The notes beneath the pieces were generated by a model. That model did not search any database. It was not told the origin of the DNA and saw only the letters and a list, made by a program, of their open reading frames with translations. Both the position numbers and the translations under genes were made by a program. A stretch of DNA of 43,232 nt, taken from the NCBI GenBank assembly GCA_020832665.1, contig JAFIEG010000036.1, positions 1 to 43,232 of the forward strand. The letters run 5' to 3'. Origin of the DNA: Pararhodobacter sp. GTDB lineage: Bacteria; Pseudomonadota; Alphaproteobacteria; Rhodobacterales; Rhodobacteraceae. Shown here one piece after another: positions 1 through 40,112 of this stretch. Position 1 is the first letter of the stretch. Each line of letters opens with the position of its first letter.

Positions 1-468
1 GCGGCAGAGGCCGAGGCGCGGGCTGCGGAAGAAGCGGCAGCGGCAGAGGCCGAGGCACAGGCGGCAGAGGAAGCGGCAGCGGCAGAGGCCGAAGCGCAGG
101 CTGCGGAAGAAGCGGCAACGGCAGAGGCCGAAGCTCGGGCGGCGGAAGAGGCTGCAGCGGCAGAGGCCGAAGCGCGGGCTGCGGAAGAGGCTGCAGCGGC
201 AGAGGCCGAAGCGCGGGCTGCGGAAGAAGCTGCGGCGGCAGAGGCCGAGGCGCAGGCGGCAGAGGAAGCGGCAGCGGCAGAGGCCGAAGCGCAGGCTGCG
301 GAAGAAGCGGCAACGGCAGAGGCCGAAGCTCGGGCGGCGGAAGAGGCTGCAGCGGCAGAGGCCGAAGCGCGGGCTGCGGAAGAGGCTGCAGCGGCAGAGG
401 CCGAAGCGCGGGCTGCGGAAGAAGCTGCGGCGGCAGAGGCCGAGGCGCAGGCGGCAGAGGAAGCGGCA
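1..468 (+). repeat. Nested tandem repeat: 39-bp unit inside a 195-bp super-unit
   Basis: Twelve consecutive 39-bp units encode the 13-residue unit A-A-E-A-E-A-(R/Q)-A-A-E-E-A-A. Units 2-6 (40-234) and units 7-11 (235-429) form two 195-bp blocks that differ at only one base, the A at 57 against G at 252. Unit 12 (430-468) begins a third block and then diverges. The repeat is in frame and lies wholly inside the OmpA-family gene. The array may continue upstream of the window. Confidence 0.95.
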
Positions 469-1605
469 GCGGCGGAAGCCGAAGCGCAGTCGGCCGAGGC
501 CGAAGCGCTTGCCGGGATCGATCTGGTCGATCCGACAGTTGCCGAAGATGACGAAGCGCCGGCAGCCGCGACGCCAGAGACGGCGGCCGCCCCCGAGGAG
601 GTGGTCGAGGAAACGCTCGACGCGCAGTCGATCCGCACCAGCGAGCAGGATTTCGCAACCGCCATCGGCGCTGCGGCAGACAGGGCCGCGCCGGGCAGCG
701 GGCGCAGCGGGCTGAGCAATCTCGAAACGGCGCTCCTGCTGGGCCTGGGTGCGATCGTTGTCGGATCGGTGCTGCGCAGTGGCGAGCGGGTGGTGGAGAA
801 TACGGGCGACCGCGTCGTGGTCGAGGGTCCGCGTGGCTTTGCTGTTTACAAGGATGACGACGCGCTCTTGCGTCAGCCGGGCGCGACGGTGCGCACGGAA
901 ACCTTTTCCGACGGGTCTTCACGCACCACGCTCGACCGGATTGACGGATCGCAGGTGGTAACGATCCGTGATTCGCGCGGGCGGGTGTTGCGTCGTGCCG
1001 CCCTCTATCCTGACGGCACGCAATACGAATTGTTCGACGATCTCGAACCGACGCCGGCAGTTGATGTGCGCGAGCTTCAGGCAAGGCGCCCGTCACGGCG
1101 CAGCCTGTCGGTGGCAGACAGCGATCTGATCACCTTGCGCGCGGCGATGCGCGAAGACATGGCCTATGACGTGGGCCGGACCTTCAGCCTGCGCCAGATT
1201 CGCGAGATCGAGCAGGTGCGAAGCCTTGTCCCGGCGATCGAGCTGGATACGATCACCTTCGCGACCGGCTCTGCCGCGATTCCCGCCGGGCAGTCGCGCA
1301 GCCTTGTTCGGCTGGGCATCCTGATCGAAGAGCTGCTGTTCGAGAACCCGCGCGAGATGTTCCTGATCGAAGGCCATACCGACGCGGTGGGGAGCGAAAG
1401 CTATAACCTTGCGCTGTCGGACCGGCGCGCGGAAACGGTGGCGCTTGCCCTGACCGAGGCTTTCCGCATCCCGCCTGAAAACCTGATCGTTCAGGGCTAT
1501 GGCGAATCCTTCCTCAGGGTGCAGACGCAGGCGGCAGAGCAACGCAACCGCCGCGCGACGGTGCGCAGGATCACCCCGCTGCTGCGCCAGATCGCGGCGA
1601 ACTGA
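1..1605 (+). CDS. OmpA-family envelope protein with Ala/Glu-rich repeat stalk (5' end missing)
   Basis: The frame is open from the first base of the window to a TGA at 1603-1605, so the N-terminus lies outside. The visible 534 residues are an Ala/Glu-rich repeat region (residues 1-156), an acidic linker, one hydrophobic segment (NLETALLLGLGAIVVGSVL, nt 718-774), a middle region rich in short beta-like stretches, and a C-terminal OmpA/MotB peptidoglycan-binding domain (nt about 1230-1590). The domain shows the motif GHTDAVGS, then YNLALSDRRAETV and a final NRRATVR. In this family the domain binds peptidoglycan noncovalently and ties the outer membrane or a trans-envelope complex to the wall. 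The GTG at 601 is internal and is not a credible start, because the repeat region upstream is in frame and coding. Which membrane holds the N-terminus cannot be judged here. No operon partner is visible downstream. Confidence 0.9.
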   Translation, partial: AAEAEARAAEEAAAAEAEAQAAEEAAAAEAEAQAAEEAATAEAEARAAEEAAAAEAEARAAEEAAAAEAEARAAEEAAAAEAEAQAAEEAAAAEAEAQAAEEAATAEAEARAAEEAAAAEAEARAAEEAAAAEAEARAAEEAAAAEAEAQAAEEAAAAEAEAQSAEAEALAGIDLVDPTVAEDDEAPAAATPETAAAPEEVVEETLDAQSIRTSEQDFATAIGAAADRAAPGSGRSGLSNLETALLLGLGAIVVGSVLRSGERVVENTGDRVVVEGPRGFAVYKDDDALLRQPGATVRTETFSDGSSRTTLDRIDGSQVVTIRDSRGRVLRRAALYPDGTQYELFDDLEPTPAVDVRELQARRPSRRSLSVADSDLITLRAAMREDMAYDVGRTFSLRQIREIEQVRSLVPAIELDTITFATGSAAIPAGQSRSLVRLGILIEELLFENPREMFLIEGHTDAVGSESYNLALSDRRAETVALALTEAFRIPPENLIVQGYGESFLRVQTQAAEQRNRRATVRRITPLLRQIAAN

Positions 1606-15766: not shown

Positions 15767-18700
15767 TCAACCAGCCGCCGTCCGCCGGTCTTGCCTGGCA
15801 TGGTGGCCGATTTCCCGTGCCAGCGCCGCCTTGCGGAAGGGCTTGGGCAGGTGCCCGGCAAAGCCTGCGGCGATATAGCCCTCGACCTGATGGCGCATGG
15901 CATTGGCCGTCACCGCCAGCGCCGGCACCGGCGCGGCGCCGGCGTCGCGCTCGCGCTCGCGGATCGCGGCAAGGGCGCTGGGGCCATCCATCCCCGGCAT
16001 GGCGATATCGAGCAGCAGCAGATCGAATTCGCCGGGCCGAAACGCCTTGAGCACGTTCTTGCCATCGTCGCAAACCGTCACCGCAACCCCCAGCCCCTCG
16101 AGCATTCGCTGCAGGATCAGACGGTTGGTGCGGTTGTCATCGGCGACCAGGATGCGCAGCCCGGAAAGCTCGGCCGGTTCCTCGTTCTCGGGCGCGGGCG
16201 CATCCGCCTCTTCGCCCTCGGCGGCCGGGGCGGGCAGGGTCAGCCGGACGGTGGTGCCGAGGCCGGGCAGGCTGTCCAGTTCAATCTCGCCGCCCATTAA
16301 TTCCACCAGCCGGCGTGTGATCGACAAACCCAGCCCGGTGCCGCCAAAGCGGCGCGCGGTGCGACTGTCGGCTTGTTCGAACTCGTCGAAAACGCGCGCT
16401 ACCTGGTCGGAACTCATGCCGATGCCGCTGTCGCTCACGGCGATGTTCAGCCGCTCGCCCTCGATGGCGATGGTTAGCTTGACCTCGCCCTTTTTCGTGA
16501 ACTTGATCGCATTGCTGACCAGATTGTGCAGGATCTGCAACAGCCGGTCGGGATCGGCCATCCGCTTGCGCGCGCCGTTGCCGACGGTTCGCACCGCCAG
16601 CGAAATCCCCGTCGAGCGCGCGCGCAGCCGGTAATGCGCCTCGATCCGGCGCGCCAGCGCGGCGGGCTCAAAGGGCCGGCTCTGGATTTCCAGCTTGCCG
16701 GCCTCGATCTTGGCGAGATCGAGCAGATCGTTGAGGATGCTCAGCAACCCCTCGCCTGAATCGCGGATGGTTTCGACCATGCTGCGCTGCTCGTCGCTGA
16801 TCTCGCCCTCGGCGAGCAGTTCCGCCATGCCCAGAACACCCATCAGCGGGGTGCGCAACTCATGGCTCATATTGGCCAGGAAGCGCGATTTCGATTCGCT
16901 CGCCGCCTCGGCGCGTTCGACGGCGCGCACCAGTGGCGTGACATCTGTGCCAACCCCGCGATAGCCGGCGAAATGGCCCTCGGCATCGCGATAGGGGGTG
17001 CCCGAGACCCGGATATGAATTGGCCTGCCGTCATCGCGGCTCCGCATCTGATAGACAAAACCGGAATAGCTTTGGCGCGCCTGCTGGATCTGCCTGAGCC
17101 GCTCCCATTGCTCGCCTTCTCCGCCGGTGTTGCTGATCTCTTCGCGCCGCCGGCCGATGAGCTTGCTGCGGGGGACGCCGGTGGTGCGCTCGAAGCCTTG
17201 TGAGACATAGGTGAAGCGGCCCTCGGTATCCTGCTCCCAGAACCAGTCGTTGCTGATCTCGGCGATATCGGCCATTCGCTGCTCGGCGGCGCGGCGCTCG
17301 GCCAGCGCCAGTTCCAGCGCACCCTTGGCGCGGGTGAGCGCGGCCTCGCGTTCCTTGGCCTCGGTGATGTCGATCATGATTCCGCTCGCCGCTTCGGCCA
17401 GCCCGTTGTTTCCCCAGCGGCGCACCCAAGTCTTGCACATGACCCACACCCAACGCCCGCTCTTGTGGTGCAGGCGGAACTCGGTGGGAAAGGTGTCTTC
17501 CGAGCGTTCGCAGGCGGCGCGAACCCTGCGCTTTACCCCGTCGATATCTTCGGGATGGATCAACTCGAAGAGCCGCTCGATCGAAAAGGGCGCCAATTCC
17601 TCCAGATCGCGGCCCAGCATGGCGGCGAAGGTGTCGTCGATGGCGGTGCTGGGAATGGCGGTGTCGAATTCCCAGGTGGCAATCATCGTGCCTTCGAGAA
17701 TGGCGCTCAGGCGCTCTTCGGCCTGGCGCCGCTCGGTGATGTCGATATCGATGCCGCTCATGCGCAGCGCGCGGCCCTCGGTGTCGCGCTCGGTGACATG
17801 GCCGCGGGTCAGCACATGCACCCAGTGGCCCTGGCGGTGGCGCAGGCGCGCCTCGATCTCCAGCCGGTCGCCCTCGCCGGCCACGATCCGCGCCAGTTCC
17901 TCGTTGATGCGGGCATTGTCTTCGGGATGCGCGAGCATCGCCCATTTCTCTTTGGAATGCTCGGGCAGTTCGCTGCGCTCGTAGCCCAGCATCTGGAACC
18001 AGAAATCGTTGACCTCCTCGATATCGGCGGTCAGGTCCAGATCCCATGTGCCGATGCGTGCGCCGGTGATGATGTCGGCCAGGCGCTGCTCGGCTTGGCG
18101 CAACTTGGTGATATCGGTGCGCAGGCCGACATGGCCGCCATCGGCCAAGGCCGTGGCCGAAACGCGGATCACCCTACCATCGGCATAGACCAGTTCGTCC
18201 TCGAAGCCGGATTTACTGCTGGCATTGGTCAGCGCACGCTGTTTCCGCTGGGCGCCGTCAGGGGTGTGCATGTAAATGCCACGGGTCACGCCGGTAACGA
18301 TGATTTCCTGCATCGTCACGCCGGGGCGGATGATATCGGCCATCGCGGCGTTGATCTGGCGATAACGGCTGTTGAACAGAACCAGCCGGTCTTCGGCATC
18401 GAAGAGCACGAAGCCATCGTCGAGAGCCTCGATGGCAGCGGTCAGACGCCGATGCGCGGCCTCGGCGCGCCCGGCCATCTCGGCAAGCGCGTCTTCGTGG
18501 CGTTTTTGCTCGGTGATGTCGGTTTCGACCGACAGGAAACCCCGAAACCGGCCTTCCCGATCATGCCAGGGCTGCAGCGAAATGTCGATCCAGATATCGC
18601 TGCCGTTGGGGGCCAGCCTGTGGCCGGTAACACGCACCGGCTCGCGCGCGGCAACGGCGGCATCCACCGCTGCCATGGTCTGTGCGCTGGTCTTGGACCC

Positions 18701-19783
18701 TGTAAACTCGCGGATGCGCCGGCCGATCAGGGCCGAAAGCGGCTTGCCGATGCTTTTCTCGAAGGCCGGGTTGGCCCAGCGGATGCGCATGGCTTCGTCC
18801 AGGACAAGCACGAAATTGGTCATGTTGCGGGTCACGACGCCCAGCAACTCGTTTTGCTCCTTCTGCTCGTGCTCGTCAGTGATGTCGGCGATGCGAAGGA
18901 CAAATCCTGTCTCGCCGCGCGGGGTTGCGCGTCGCGCCGCCCTGAGCCGGAAGCGCCGCCGCCTGCCGCCGGTTTCCAGCCAGTATTCCACTGGCTTCGA
19001 CACGCCTCGTTCCAGCGCCTCGGCCATCGCCGCGCGCTTCAGCGCGGCAATATCGGCCGACAGGACATCCTCGAGCAAGCTGCCCAGGGTCTTGTCGGCC
19101 GGGGCGGCAAGCAGGTCGGGGTGGAGGCTGTGGATGTCGATATAGCGGCCCTCGGAATTTACCTCGAGCACGAGATCGTGCATCGCCGCCAGCGTCGCGC
19201 GCAGGCGTTCAACCGCCTCGCCCTGGGCCTCGCGCGCCCGCCCCAGCGCTGCTTCGGCCCGGTGGTGGGAAATGGCCGAATACAGCCCGTCGGCAATCGG
19301 GTGCAGGCGCGCCACCAAGTCGGCTTCGAAAGGATGGTCCGTTATGTGCCGGGAAAGGGCGATGACCCCCACAAAACTGCCGCCGCGTATCATCGGCACT
19401 GCAGCCACGCAGCGCGCTTCGAGCGACATCAGCAGCGCGCGCAGGGGGCTTTCGGGCAGTGCCGCGACATCGCCAAGCAGGACGTCCTGCCCGTTGAGCA
19501 ATGCCTCGGGCGTGAAGCCGTCTGCGTCCAGCGGCAGTTCGCGCAGCCTATCGCGAACGGGCGATACCCCTTCGGCGCACCATTCATGGCTGCAGTTCCA
19601 CAAACCGGCATCCTTGAGCAACACGCACAGGCGCTCGGCGCCCAGCCGGCTGCCGATCTCGGTCAGAACCAGCGCAATTTCGCCGTCCAAGGCGTGCCTT
19701 TCGGCTCGCAACAGTCGGCCGAGCGCTTCGATGACGACCTCTTGGTGAAGCAATGCTGGCCTGTCTGTCTGATTGGCTTTCAT
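15767..19783 (-). CDS. GAF/multi-PAS hybrid sensor histidine kinase
   Basis: This 1338-residue protein is a soluble-looking hybrid kinase with no membrane segment. An N-terminal GAF domain (about 25-185) is followed by about six PAS units (roughly 195-310, 315-435, 440-560, 565-685, 690-815 and 835-955). Several PAS units end in the PAC-like signature (D-I-T-E). The kinase core has His974 in MSHELRTPL, an N box (LHNLVSNAIKF), DSGIGM and GGTGLGLS. A C-terminal receiver domain has acidic residues DD, phosphoacceptor Asp1259 (LLLLDIAMPGMDG), the switch threonine in AVTANA and the lysine in LPKPF. It should pass phosphate from His974 to Asp1259 and then to an unseen HPt protein. Ligands are unknown. 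No response regulator gene is adjacent. It ends convergently with gcrA. Confidence 0.95.
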   Translation of the reverse strand: MKANQTDRPALLHQEVVIEALGRLLRAERHALDGEIALVLTEIGSRLGAERLCVLLKDAGLWNCSHEWCAEGVSPVRDRLRELPLDADGFTPEALLNGQDVLLGDVAALPESPLRALLMSLEARCVAAVPMIRGGSFVGVIALSRHITDHPFEADLVARLHPIADGLYSAISHHRAEAALGRAREAQGEAVERLRATLAAMHDLVLEVNSEGRYIDIHSLHPDLLAAPADKTLGSLLEDVLSADIAALKRAAMAEALERGVSKPVEYWLETGGRRRRFRLRAARRATPRGETGFVLRIADITDEHEQKEQNELLGVVTRNMTNFVLVLDEAMRIRWANPAFEKSIGKPLSALIGRRIREFTGSKTSAQTMAAVDAAVAAREPVRVTGHRLAPNGSDIWIDISLQPWHDREGRFRGFLSVETDITEQKRHEDALAEMAGRAEAAHRRLTAAIEALDDGFVLFDAEDRLVLFNSRYRQINAAMADIIRPGVTMQEIIVTGVTRGIYMHTPDGAQRKQRALTNASSKSGFEDELVYADGRVIRVSATALADGGHVGLRTDITKLRQAEQRLADIITGARIGTWDLDLTADIEEVNDFWFQMLGYERSELPEHSKEKWAMLAHPEDNARINEELARIVAGEGDRLEIEARLRHRQGHWVHVLTRGHVTERDTEGRALRMSGIDIDITERRQAEERLSAILEGTMIATWEFDTAIPSTAIDDTFAAMLGRDLEELAPFSIERLFELIHPEDIDGVKRRVRAACERSEDTFPTEFRLHHKSGRWVWVMCKTWVRRWGNNGLAEAASGIMIDITEAKEREAALTRAKGALELALAERRAAEQRMADIAEISNDWFWEQDTEGRFTYVSQGFERTTGVPRSKLIGRRREEISNTGGEGEQWERLRQIQQARQSYSGFVYQMRSRDDGRPIHIRVSGTPYRDAEGHFAGYRGVGTDVTPLVRAVERAEAASESKSRFLANMSHELRTPLMGVLGMAELLAEGEISDEQRSMVETIRDSGEGLLSILNDLLDLAKIEAGKLEIQSRPFEPAALARRIEAHYRLRARSTGISLAVRTVGNGARKRMADPDRLLQILHNLVSNAIKFTKKGEVKLTIAIEGERLNIAVSDSGIGMSSDQVARVFDEFEQADSRTARRFGGTGLGLSITRRLVELMGGEIELDSLPGLGTTVRLTLPAPAAEGEEADAPAPENEEPAELSGLRILVADDNRTNRLILQRMLEGLGVAVTVCDDGKNVLKAFRPGEFDLLLLDIAMPGMDGPSALAAIRERERDAGAAPVPALAVTANAMRHQVEGYIAAGFAGHLPKPFRKAALAREIGHHARQDRRTAAG

Positions 19784-20954: not shown

Positions 20955-22169
20955 ATGCGGTATCTGTATCTGTTCGTCTGGTTATCTGTTTTCGCCTTCG
21001 TGCCCGTATCGGCCGAGGCGCGCAGCCTGTGCCGGCCCGACCCGGCGGCGATTGCCCAGCGCAATGCCTGCGCAGGCAACACGCGCGTCTCGCTTGCCGT
21101 GGTGGGCGATGTGCTGTTGCATCGCCCGCTCGCCTGGCGCGGCTATGCGCGCGGCTTCGAAACCCTTTGGGGCAACACCATGCCCTGGTTTCGCGCCGCC
21201 GATATTGCCATCGCCAATCTCGAAGGCCCCACCGCGCCGGGCATCGCGCGCGACGGCCGCCGACTGCCTGATCCGGGCCCGGTTTTCGACGATGTTGTCT
21301 ATACCGAATATCCGCGTTTCAACTATCACCCGGTGCTGATCGACGCGCTGCGCGATGCGGGCATCGACATGGTGACCACCGCCAACAATCATGCGCTCGA
21401 TCGCGGCCCGACCGGGCTTGCGGCCACGATGGACGAGCTTGAAGCGCGCGGCATGGCCTTTGCCGGCACCATCCGTGCCGGTGCGCGGCGCGATTTCGCC
21501 CGCCGCCTGCCCACGGCGCTGGGCGAGATCGCCTTCATCGCCTGCAGCTATGGCACCAATGGCATTCCTGATCCGCATGGCCAGGTGCTTTTATGCCATG
21601 ACCAGCGCGCCGAATTGCTTGCGGCGGTGCGTGCCGAGGCCGCGCGCAGCGCCTTGGTGGTGGTGTTGCCGCATTGGGGTGTGGAATACAGCCACCGCCC
21701 CACGCGGGCCCAGCGCGATCTGGCGCGCGATCTGGTCGCCGCCGGGGCAATGGCGGTGATTGGCACCCACCCGCATGTCGCGCAGCCGGTGGAATGGCTG
21801 CAGGGGCCGGCGGGGCAGGCGCTGGTGGCCTATTCCACCGGCAATTTCCTGGCCGGGCAGGCGGAGCTGGCGCGCGCCTCCGGGCTGATGATCTGGGCCG
21901 AGGCCTGCGCCGATCCGCGCCGCGCCGGCCGCGCCACGATCGCCGGGGCGGGCTATCTGCCCACCCACCTTGATCTCTCGGGCCCCGATCCGGTACTGGT
22001 CATGCCCGGCCCCGACGCCGCCGGCACCGCTGCCCAGGGCCGCGCGCTGCTGGCGCGGGTGGCGGGCGGCGAGCATGATCTGTCTGCCGCCGCGCAGTGC
22101 CGAAGCGCGCGCCGGGTGTCGTCCGGCGCCAGTTCGGGCCCGGCTATGCCGCCGACCATCACGCCGTGA
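20955..22169 (+). CDS. CapA-family secreted protein, copy A
   Basis: The 404-residue protein has a Sec signal peptide (MRYLYLFVWLSVFAFVPVSA, cut near AEA) followed by a PGA_cap/CapA metallophosphatase-like domain. Motifs are VVGDVLLH, ADIAIANLEGPTAPG, TTANNHALDRGPTGL, LPHWGVEYSH, IGTHPHVAQPVE and AYSTGNFLAG. CapA proteins are tied to poly-gamma-glutamate capsule or wall-linked functions in Bacillus. In proteobacteria most members have no known substrate. No capB or capC genes are present. Cysteines cluster before and after the domain (SLCRPD, NACAGN, AQCRSA), which suggests disulfides in the periplasm. It is followed after 41 bases by a close paralogue. Confidence 0.9.
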   Translation: MRYLYLFVWLSVFAFVPVSAEARSLCRPDPAAIAQRNACAGNTRVSLAVVGDVLLHRPLAWRGYARGFETLWGNTMPWFRAADIAIANLEGPTAPGIARDGRRLPDPGPVFDDVVYTEYPRFNYHPVLIDALRDAGIDMVTTANNHALDRGPTGLAATMDELEARGMAFAGTIRAGARRDFARRLPTALGEIAFIACSYGTNGIPDPHGQVLLCHDQRAELLAAVRAEAARSALVVVLPHWGVEYSHRPTRAQRDLARDLVAAGAMAVIGTHPHVAQPVEWLQGPAGQALVAYSTGNFLAGQAELARASGLMIWAEACADPRRAGRATIAGAGYLPTHLDLSGPDPVLVMPGPDAAGTAAQGRALLARVAGGEHDLSAAAQCRSARRVSSGASSGPAMPPTITP

Positions 22170-22210
22170 ACCTGCCCGCAACGCCTGAGCAAACGAGGGG
22201 AGCCCCGATA

Positions 22211-23449
22211 ATGATACACCGCGCCACTTCCTGGTTTCGCGGCCTAGCCTGTGCCGCCGGGCTTGTCCTTGCGCTACTTGCAACTCCGGCCAACGCCTCG
22301 GGCGAGGTCTGCCGGCCCGCCGCCGCCGCGCTGCCCGTGCTCAATACCTGCCGGGGCAGCGACCGCATCTCGCTGTCGGTGGTGGGCGATGTGCTGCTGC
22401 ATTCGCCACTGCAGCGGCGCGGCTATGCGCGCGGCTGGGGCGATGTCTGGGGCACCGCCGCGCCCTATTTCCACGCCGCCGATATCGCCATCGCCAATCT
22501 CGAGGGACCCACCGCGCCGGGCTTTGTACGCGGTGGCCGCCAGCGGCGCGACCCGGGCCCGGTCTTCGACAATGTGGTGTATCAGGGCTATCCGCTGTTC
22601 AACTATCACCCCTCGGCAATCGACGGGCTGCGCGAGGCCGGGATCTCGCTGGTGACGCTGGCCAACAACCACGCGCTTGATCGCGCGTCCTCGGGGCTGA
22701 ATGCCACCATGGACGAGCTTGACGCGCGCGGCATGCCCTTTACCGGCACCATCCGCCCCGGCGCGCCGCGCGATTTCTTCCTGCGCGTGCGCACGCGCAT
22801 GGGGGTGATCAGCTTCATCGCCTGCACTTATTCCACCAATGGCATCCCCGACCCGCACCGCCAGGTGCTTATGTGCTACCAGAACCGCGACGAGTTGCTG
22901 GCCATGGTCGGCACCGAGGCCGCGCGGCCAGGCACCGGCGGGGTGATCGTGCTGCCGCATTGGGGGGTGGAATACAGCCACCACCCCATCGCCCGCCAGC
23001 GGGCGCTCGCGCGCGATCTCATCGCCGCGGGTGCCATGGCGGTGATCGGCACGCACCCGCATGTCGTGCAACCCTTCGAGACCTATCCGGGCCCGATGGG
23101 TACCGGCTTTGTGGCCTATTCCACGGGCAATTTCGTCTCCAACCAGCGCGGGCTGGCGCGCGCCACCGGCATCATGGCCTGGGCCGAGATCTGCCGCGCG
23201 CAAAGCGGCGTCGGGCTGGCGCTGGCCGGGGCGGGCTGGCTGCCGCTGCAGATGGTGTCGGACCGCCATGGCCGCACGCTGACCTTTCCGCCGCCGGGCG
23301 TCGGGGGCTTGGGCGGGCAGGGGCGCGCGTTGGTGGAACGGGTGATCCCGGGCCATGACGTTTCCGACTCGGTGCGCTGCGCGCGGCCTGCGCGCGCCAG
23401 CCGCGCGGCGCGCAGCGGCTGGGAACAACAGGTGCCGGACGGGCCTTGA
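22211..23449 (+). CDS. CapA-family secreted protein, copy B
   Basis: The 412-residue protein is a paralogue of copy A. It has a signal peptide (ATSWFRGLACAAGLVLALLA, cut near ANA) and the same motifs in the same order: VVGDVLLHSP, ADIAIANLEGPTAPG, LANNHALDRASSGL, LPHWGVEYSHHP, IGTHPHVVQPFE and AYSTGNFVSN. The paired cysteines (EVCRPA, NTCRGS, VRCARP) are also kept. The N-terminal extension from the ATG 22211 site matches copy A, and GAGGGG lies ten bases before that ATG, which is why the in-frame start at 22097 inside copy A is not used. The two genes form a tandem duplicate and are likely co-transcribed. Confidence 0.9.
   Translation: MIHRATSWFRGLACAAGLVLALLATPANASGEVCRPAAAALPVLNTCRGSDRISLSVVGDVLLHSPLQRRGYARGWGDVWGTAAPYFHAADIAIANLEGPTAPGFVRGGRQRRDPGPVFDNVVYQGYPLFNYHPSAIDGLREAGISLVTLANNHALDRASSGLNATMDELDARGMPFTGTIRPGAPRDFFLRVRTRMGVISFIACTYSTNGIPDPHRQVLMCYQNRDELLAMVGTEAARPGTGGVIVLPHWGVEYSHHPIARQRALARDLIAAGAMAVIGTHPHVVQPFETYPGPMGTGFVAYSTGNFVSNQRGLARATGIMAWAEICRAQSGVGLALAGAGWLPLQMVSDRHGRTLTFPPPGVGGLGGQGRALVERVIPGHDVSDSVRCARPARASRAARSGWEQQVPDGP

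Positions 23450-38633: not shown

Positions 38634-40112
<1,479 letters not shown>

Follow-up and report, generated by a model that had tools for sequence, protein, structure and literature searches.

A two-level tandem repeat in the spacer of a predicted OmpA-type wall anchor from Pararhodobacter sp., and its turnover among homologues

The first 468 nt of contig C100 (JAFIEG010000036.1) of a Pararhodobacter sp. draft assembly (GCA_020832665.1; 157 contigs, 4.19 Mb) consist of twelve full direct 39-bp repeats in an open reading frame. This raises the questions of what kind of protein carries such an array, how the array was built, and what it may be kept for. "The window" below is the whole stretch of DNA analysed, 43,232 nt of this contig. 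The window starts at the first base of C100, i.e., the contig begins within the array (1-468, + strand), which is cut there by the contig end.

Each full unit encodes (A/T)AEAEA(R/Q)AAEEAA, and a degenerate thirteenth and final unit follows (469-507, +). In the window, TRF reports a 39-bp period in 12.5 copies and a 195-bp period in 2.5 copies, with 97% matches. The longer period reflects two 195-bp blocks of five units each, 40-234 and 235-429 (together 40-429, +), with a single mismatch between them, at position 57. Units five places apart differ on average at 0.57 of 39 bases, compared with 4.50-5.67 at lags of 1-4, 6, and 7; under permutation of unit order, 3 of 200,000 arrangements were equally good (P 1.5e-5). 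Differences among the window units are largely synonymous; in addition, the seventh residue of the unit is R or Q and the first A or T. Residues 1-156 comprise 94 A, 48 E, 7 R, 5 Q, and 2 T, with no lysine and a net charge of -41. A preliminary description had proposed 39-bp units grouped in 195-bp blocks, two near-identical blocks, synonymous and R/Q variation between units, and a lysine-free, acidic, alanine-rich stalk; each of these points holds, with the A/T difference to be added and position 57 as the sole difference between the blocks. Only some 2.2-2.5 blocks are visible, because C100 begins inside the array.

The window holds the 3' part of the ORF (1-1605, +; 534 codons and a stop); the start codon is on contig C154. 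This contig breaks off within the same array at its base 22215, in the reading frame of the window ORF, and its end (22185-22215) is an exact match to window positions 1-31 (+), a 31-mer of which the window and the C154 stretch examined each contain a single copy. The C154 part, 252 codons counted from a methionine, has a signal-peptide-like start (judged by eye), a head with two cysteines (LLCLDESEPPC), degenerate Ala/Glu sequence, and then seven full units and a 31-base partial one. A lipoprotein was rejected, the apparent cleavage site, again by eye, being without cysteine. Extension of the locus upstream had been proposed. The array does continue on C154, but the block order seen in the window (R Q Q R R at unit position 7) does not: the C154 units read R R Q R Q R R, and the 195-bp duplication therefore belongs to the 3' part of the array. 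If the overlap is the true junction, the joined protein would have 776 residues and 19 full units, a working figure only and provisional because copies may be missing at the contig break. Elsewhere in the genome, a gene at G000:C51:1-1250 (L011) is likewise cut by a contig end, starting within an array of 13-residue units, EEAARAEAERQAA. It has no Pfam match at E up to 1e-5, and was tried and rejected as a donor, with 71% DNA identity over 192 bases.

The protein is predicted to run from a signal peptide through a cysteine-pair head, an acidic Ala/Glu spacer, a Gly-rich segment, and a beta domain to an OmpA domain. The last of these, an OmpA C-terminal-like peptidoglycan-binding domain (PF00691), is predicted at 1255-1551 (+), with 55.1 bits against a gathering cut-off of 27.2. 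The 50 listed of 81 Foldseek matches with E ≤ 0.001 are titled OmpA-like, Pal, YfiB, MotB-type, or similar periplasmic domains. Residues D461 (the D of HTD) and R475/R476 are invariant in all 40 rows of alignment A2 (L060, with a stop codon within its stretch, was excluded), and by phmmer they align with HTD and R(R/A) in domains of solved structure. In OmpA-like domains, the conserved Asp and Arg are the residues that bind diaminopimelate.

Between array and OmpA domain, the end of the spacer (residues 158-194; 472-582, +) is predicted to be disordered, with AlphaFold2 pLDDT below 50; pLDDT is below 50 at residues 220-248 as well. A conserved element, VVEETLDAQSIRTSEQDF (601-654, +), overlaps a predicted beta-strand at residues 200-205 (mean pLDDT 89 for 201-210), and contains R39 and S41 of alignment A1, both invariant in 14 of 14 sequences. 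The hydrophobic Gly-rich segment NLETALLLGLGAIVVGSVL (718-774, +; Kyte-Doolittle mean 1.78 over 19 residues) is modeled with low confidence; it is possibly a membrane-associated helix. It is followed by a beta-strand-rich domain common to the family (residues 263-346; 787-1038, +), whose only Pfam match is sub-threshold (DUF3509, 19.1 bits; cut-off 25). This domain has repeated DG(S/T)-type hairpins, belongs to no named family, and is present in the aligned relatives.

Pfam searches on ten flanking ORFs (three on C154, two in the window, three beside L045, and two beside L046; chosen by the author, with neighborhoods unaligned) found no gene common to the places tested. Seven of the ten had matches, to an AraC-type regulator, an AbrB-type protein, a short-chain dehydrogenase, IF-3, an amidohydrolase, an acyl-CoA dehydrogenase, and a P450; three had none. 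Farther along the window are a 1338-residue hybrid histidine kinase with GAF, several PAS, HisKA, HATPase, and receiver domains (15770-19783, -), a PGA_cap family (capsule synthesis protein) gene (20955-22166, +), and a 12-bp tandem repeat (3.8 copies, 87%) in the 3' part of a DEAD-box helicase gene (38718-38762).

The conserved C-terminal part of the protein (C-part) has many relatives: a search of GTDB contigs found at least 547 related stretches. The titles of the best 80 name Rhodobacteraceae/Rhodobacterales organisms, or metagenome bins labeled as such or as Alphaproteobacteria or Proteobacteria, the genera being assigned to their family here from general knowledge. Within the window's family, 139 of 394 genomes drawn match the C-part at E ≤ 1e-60. 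Of 18 genomes from the genus, 13 (among them that of the window) have a match at E below 1e-70; the remaining five, which are 64-85% complete, match weakly, via the OmpA region only. Relatives are also found on 32 plasmid records, all at <60% identity and mainly from Paracoccus, Ensifer, and Sinorhizobium; 21 of these matches were fetched and 20 used for strain comparison, L157 being dropped for undefined bases.

For comparison of spacers, 122 homologues were found, of which 10 without a recognizable start were dropped to leave 112; removal of 9 duplicates left 103 (drawn from L013-L024, L030, L042-L121, and L122-L150). Starts and cleavage sites were assigned by a custom rule, not a signal-peptide program. 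While the C-part is conserved, head and spacer together range from 164 to 470 residues (median 316.5; 112 homologues). The spacer is net acidic in 100 of the 103 and not in the other three, with median fractions of 0.27 for Ala and 0.006 for aromatic residues. It is lysine-free in 38, and proline makes up at least 8% of it in 37 and at most 3% in 20. Acidity does not extend to every relative: the spacers of rhizobial relatives are Lys/Arg-rich. Downstream of the signal peptide, cysteines are even in number in all 103 homologues: none in 13, two in 67, four in 17, six in four, and eight in two. Where there are two, both are nearly always within the first 110 residues (66 of 67), with seven residues between them in 36. 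Even numbers can be read as a sign of disulfides formed outside the cytoplasm; the Paracoccus and rhizobial relatives compared have no cysteine.

Vertical inheritance within the genus was considered and rejected: no clade smaller than the full tree of 104 tips holds all members of the genus. In this tree L123 (support 0.899) and L122 (0.999) are grouped with the window copy, and the C60 copy is placed elsewhere; so far as the tree goes, paralogy or transfer is likely. The C60 copy is a second full family member in the same genome (L030; G000:C60:220-2082, -), 52% identical in the C-part and in a different clade from the window copy; its spacer has a 156-bp block of its own (1.9 copies, 95%). 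Two further candidates for membership are RSP_1033, which belongs to the OmpA family and was seen together with DalA (PMC10470522), and the OmpA/MotB proteins reported from Dinoroseobacter vesicles (PMC7901474).

Tandem repeats are frequent in these spacers. TRF arrays scoring at least 50 are found in 88 of 103 spacers, compared with 34 of 103 codon-shuffled spacers and 5 of the genes' own C-parts, counts that are not independent since the homologues are related, and for which it should be kept in mind that short-read assemblies can lose repeats. With weak arrays in that many shuffled spacers, only the stronger ones count. Strong arrays (score at least 200) occur in 34 of 103 spacers and in no shuffled spacer or C-part; 69 spacers lack a strong array, and in 15 of the 103 TRF reports no array, so that repeats are frequent yet not needed. 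The best period is a multiple of three in all 88 cases, and among the 57 arrays scoring at least 100 unit lengths run from 6 to 54 residues. A heptad or coiled-coil period was rejected, multiples of seven residues making up 8 of these 57 arrays, the chance share; the observation that a 13-residue unit is no heptad multiple was thus right, and extends to a family without heptad preference. Fifteen of 103 spacers, and no shuffled one, have two-level arrays, that is, overlapping periods of which the longer is an integer multiple of the shorter, at least 3 points better matched, and itself at least 80% matched, with the short unit present at least four times and a score of at least 100. The window passes with 39/195 bp; other examples are L099 (18/54 and 18/162 bp) and L069 (15/75 bp).

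The units themselves turn over. The two nearest orthologues, L122 and L123, are each 78% identical to the window protein over the C-part. L122 has thirteen copies of a 13-residue unit of the window type, with M or I at position 2 in every one; in the window genome, each of the 19 full units, 12 from C100 and 7 from C154, has A here. Mean distances between units, out of 39 bases, are 5.1 within the window genome and 5.7 within L122, and 11.3 between the two. L123 has units of 63 and 132 bp instead, though the tree places it nearer to the window copy than L122. In ten non-duplicate pairs with C-parts 86-98% identical, head-plus-spacer length differs by 3 to 88 residues (14 to 88 in the four Limimaricola pairs among them). 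The C-part is conserved and the units are replaced, so the spacer is being rebuilt, with the copies in one genome evolving together. The species-specific residue in L122 and the lag-5 permutation test both support the earlier suggestion of recent block duplication or conversion.

How fast is this turnover? A head and a wall-attached end separated by near-identical tandem repeats are also found in the Periscope Proteins (SasG, Rib, Sgo_0707, CdrA), where, according to PMC8201768, the repeats are mostly folded domains, their number varies between strains, and near-identical repeats are the kind most variable in number. By analogy, repeat number here could change rapidly within a species, tuning how far a putatively surface-exposed N-terminal head projects from the cell. 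The array does consist of long, highly identical tandem repeats, and a C-terminal wall-binding domain and an N-terminal head are present. However, its 13-residue, low-complexity units are predicted as one continuous helix rather than a rod of folded domains. The head seen on C154 is short, with two cysteines; the Periscope Proteins have an N-terminal ligand-binding domain on the cell surface. The window's species (with its array broken) and the genera of L122 and L123 are represented by one genome each, and strains were compared using complete replicons of distant relatives. Among C-parts at least 98.9% identical, five Ensifer (including, by name, Casida A and a derivative) have one spacer length and no change in repeat number, and three Sinorhizobium have identical spacers with no length change. 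Three Paracoccus at the same identity differ by single-codon indels only; their arrays are weak, so they test little on repeat number. At 94% C-part identity, E60 and CTYH.Ch1 (L169), both labeled Ensifer adhaerens, are separated by one 90-bp gap, the length of a unit, in addition to gaps of 16, 23, and 3 bp; between E60 and Ensifer sp. PDNC004 (96.7%) the difference is 36 bp, which is not a unit. Between Ensifer adhaerens M8 (L160) and NER9 (L159), length is unchanged, with 17 differences in a 73-base tract (bases 449-521, in the spacer, with the first base of the gene numbered 0). The M8 tract is nearer to NER9's neighboring unit (8 differences) than to its own place (17), and these clustered differences look like conversion between repeats. 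Taken together, these comparisons speak for slower turnover, and against fast, phase-variable length change, in the relatives concerned; for the window protein, a strain-variable stalk of the Periscope kind is unlikely.

A second possibility is that the spacer acts as a structural ruler: one rigid alpha-helix, defined in length, that would set the distance between peptidoglycan and membrane. AlphaFold2, with a 40-sequence alignment in which only the query row covers the array, predicts one helix over residues 2-159, with ten-residue pLDDT means of 91-96 up to residue 140, then 82 and 60. In a charged single alpha-helix, E and K/R alternate at i/i+4 along the chain. The R-type units (R at position 7; 7 of 12 in the window) have an E3-R7-E11 ladder of i/i+4 contacts within the overall charge of -41 over 156 residues. 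Summed over these residues, the charge moment is 0.013; with the charge stripe thus evened out, a continuous coiled-coil face is not expected. A precedent for such a measuring function is Lpp, whose length sets the inner-to-outer-membrane distance in E. coli (PMC5736177). Against this, the proline-rich spacer of a relative, L067, has no predicted helix or strand (ten-residue pLDDT means 36-60, residues 1-190) ahead of a folded C-part of the same kind as the window protein's. Helix is thus one of several solutions: the long single helix of the preliminary description finds support as a prediction for the window protein, and not as a trait of a family in which 37 of 103 spacers have at least 8% proline. 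The head-plus-spacer differences of up to 88 residues within closely related pairs also fit poorly with a defined length. As a straight helix, nineteen units would extend about 37 nm (0.15 nm per residue), which is more than the width of the usual periplasm, so a rigid perpendicular ruler is improbable. Production of the 195-bp duplication by the assembler at an unresolved repeat is very unlikely, for even though the window starts exactly at a contig end inside the array, in a draft of 157 contigs where the C51 array is similarly cut, base 57 distinguishes the two blocks, C100 continues from the array into unique sequence, and two-level arrays are found in other assemblies (e.g., L099, in a record titled complete genome).

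Comparison with better-known proteins shows where the family differs. With Pal, YfiB, OmpA, and OprF it shares, by Pfam, Foldseek, and phmmer, the PF00691 C-terminal domain with its HTD and RR residues; unlike these, the window protein places a long spacer of repeats and an additional beta domain ahead of the OmpA domain, lacks a cysteine at the apparent signal-peptide end (by eye, C154), and, in the part encoded by the window, is modeled without a beta-barrel. Its best NCBIfam match is the YiaD family glycine zipper/OmpA-like lipoprotein (NF053611), which it resembles in having a hydrophobic Gly-rich segment ahead of the OmpA domain (for YiaD, judged by name). Membership was rejected, with 53.8 bits against a cut-off of 175 and a match confined to the OmpA domain. 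The domain II spacers of TolA and TonB, as described in PMC12204202, belong to envelope proteins as well, and are also of variable length (110-335 residues in TolA) and of changing helix/proline character. TolA, however, has an N-terminal membrane helix and a C-terminal domain of its own, in place of a signal-peptide-like start and an OmpA domain, and in the window protein the repeats are homogenized at the DNA level. TolA membership was also rejected: Pfam gave no TolA match at E up to 1, an OmpA domain was found, and the N-terminus on C154 is signal-peptide-like by eye. At the DNA level, the array recalls the higher-order repeats of satellite DNA, in which, through concerted evolution, a block of several diverged units is duplicated as one; in contrast to satellite DNA, it is short and in frame within a single bacterial gene.

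The repeat is probably best explained as the spacer of an exported, peptidoglycan-anchored protein, rebuilt by recombination and kept for its length and its soluble, mostly acidic character. The array, the second half of the gene, the conserved C-part, and the exchange of units among relatives are all observed; export, peptidoglycan binding, and a tether role are inferred. The OmpA domain would hold peptidoglycan, and the spacer would let the head or the hydrophobic segment reach another partner in the envelope. Relatives that keep the wall-binding end and rebuild the spacer suggest that length and composition outweigh sequence; if constraint does fall on length and character in this way, recombination would therefore be free to keep making new units. 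Unequal recombination and conversion between copies could continually generate and amplify these, sometimes stacking them into a second-level period. In the window genome, the outcome would be an array of 13-residue units whose 3' part has recently been duplicated as a 195-bp block.

The protein is best placed among known repeat-stalk and linker proteins, as a variant in which the spacer of an OmpA-type wall anchor is built of repeats; in a partial coverage of the literature, by title or the opening of the abstract, no paper concerns repeats in this OmpA-spacer family. Lpp homologues are absent from most Alphaproteobacteria (PMC10470522), which leaves room for other tethers. More tentatively, and with some doubt, this wall-anchor family, which is without a name, widespread in Rhodobacteraceae, and also found in rhizobia, might use its recombination-driven spacer as an evolvable tether, selected on reach and solubility only and perhaps replacing the fixed-length Lpp. 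Every lineage would then go on renewing its spacer through the formation and stacking of new repeats. With one conserved anchor and many separately rebuilt spacers, the family is a natural series in which the needs of an envelope spacer (length, charge, helix, or sequence) become testable, and, within single bacterial genes, it provides many replicate cases of how higher-order repeats form.
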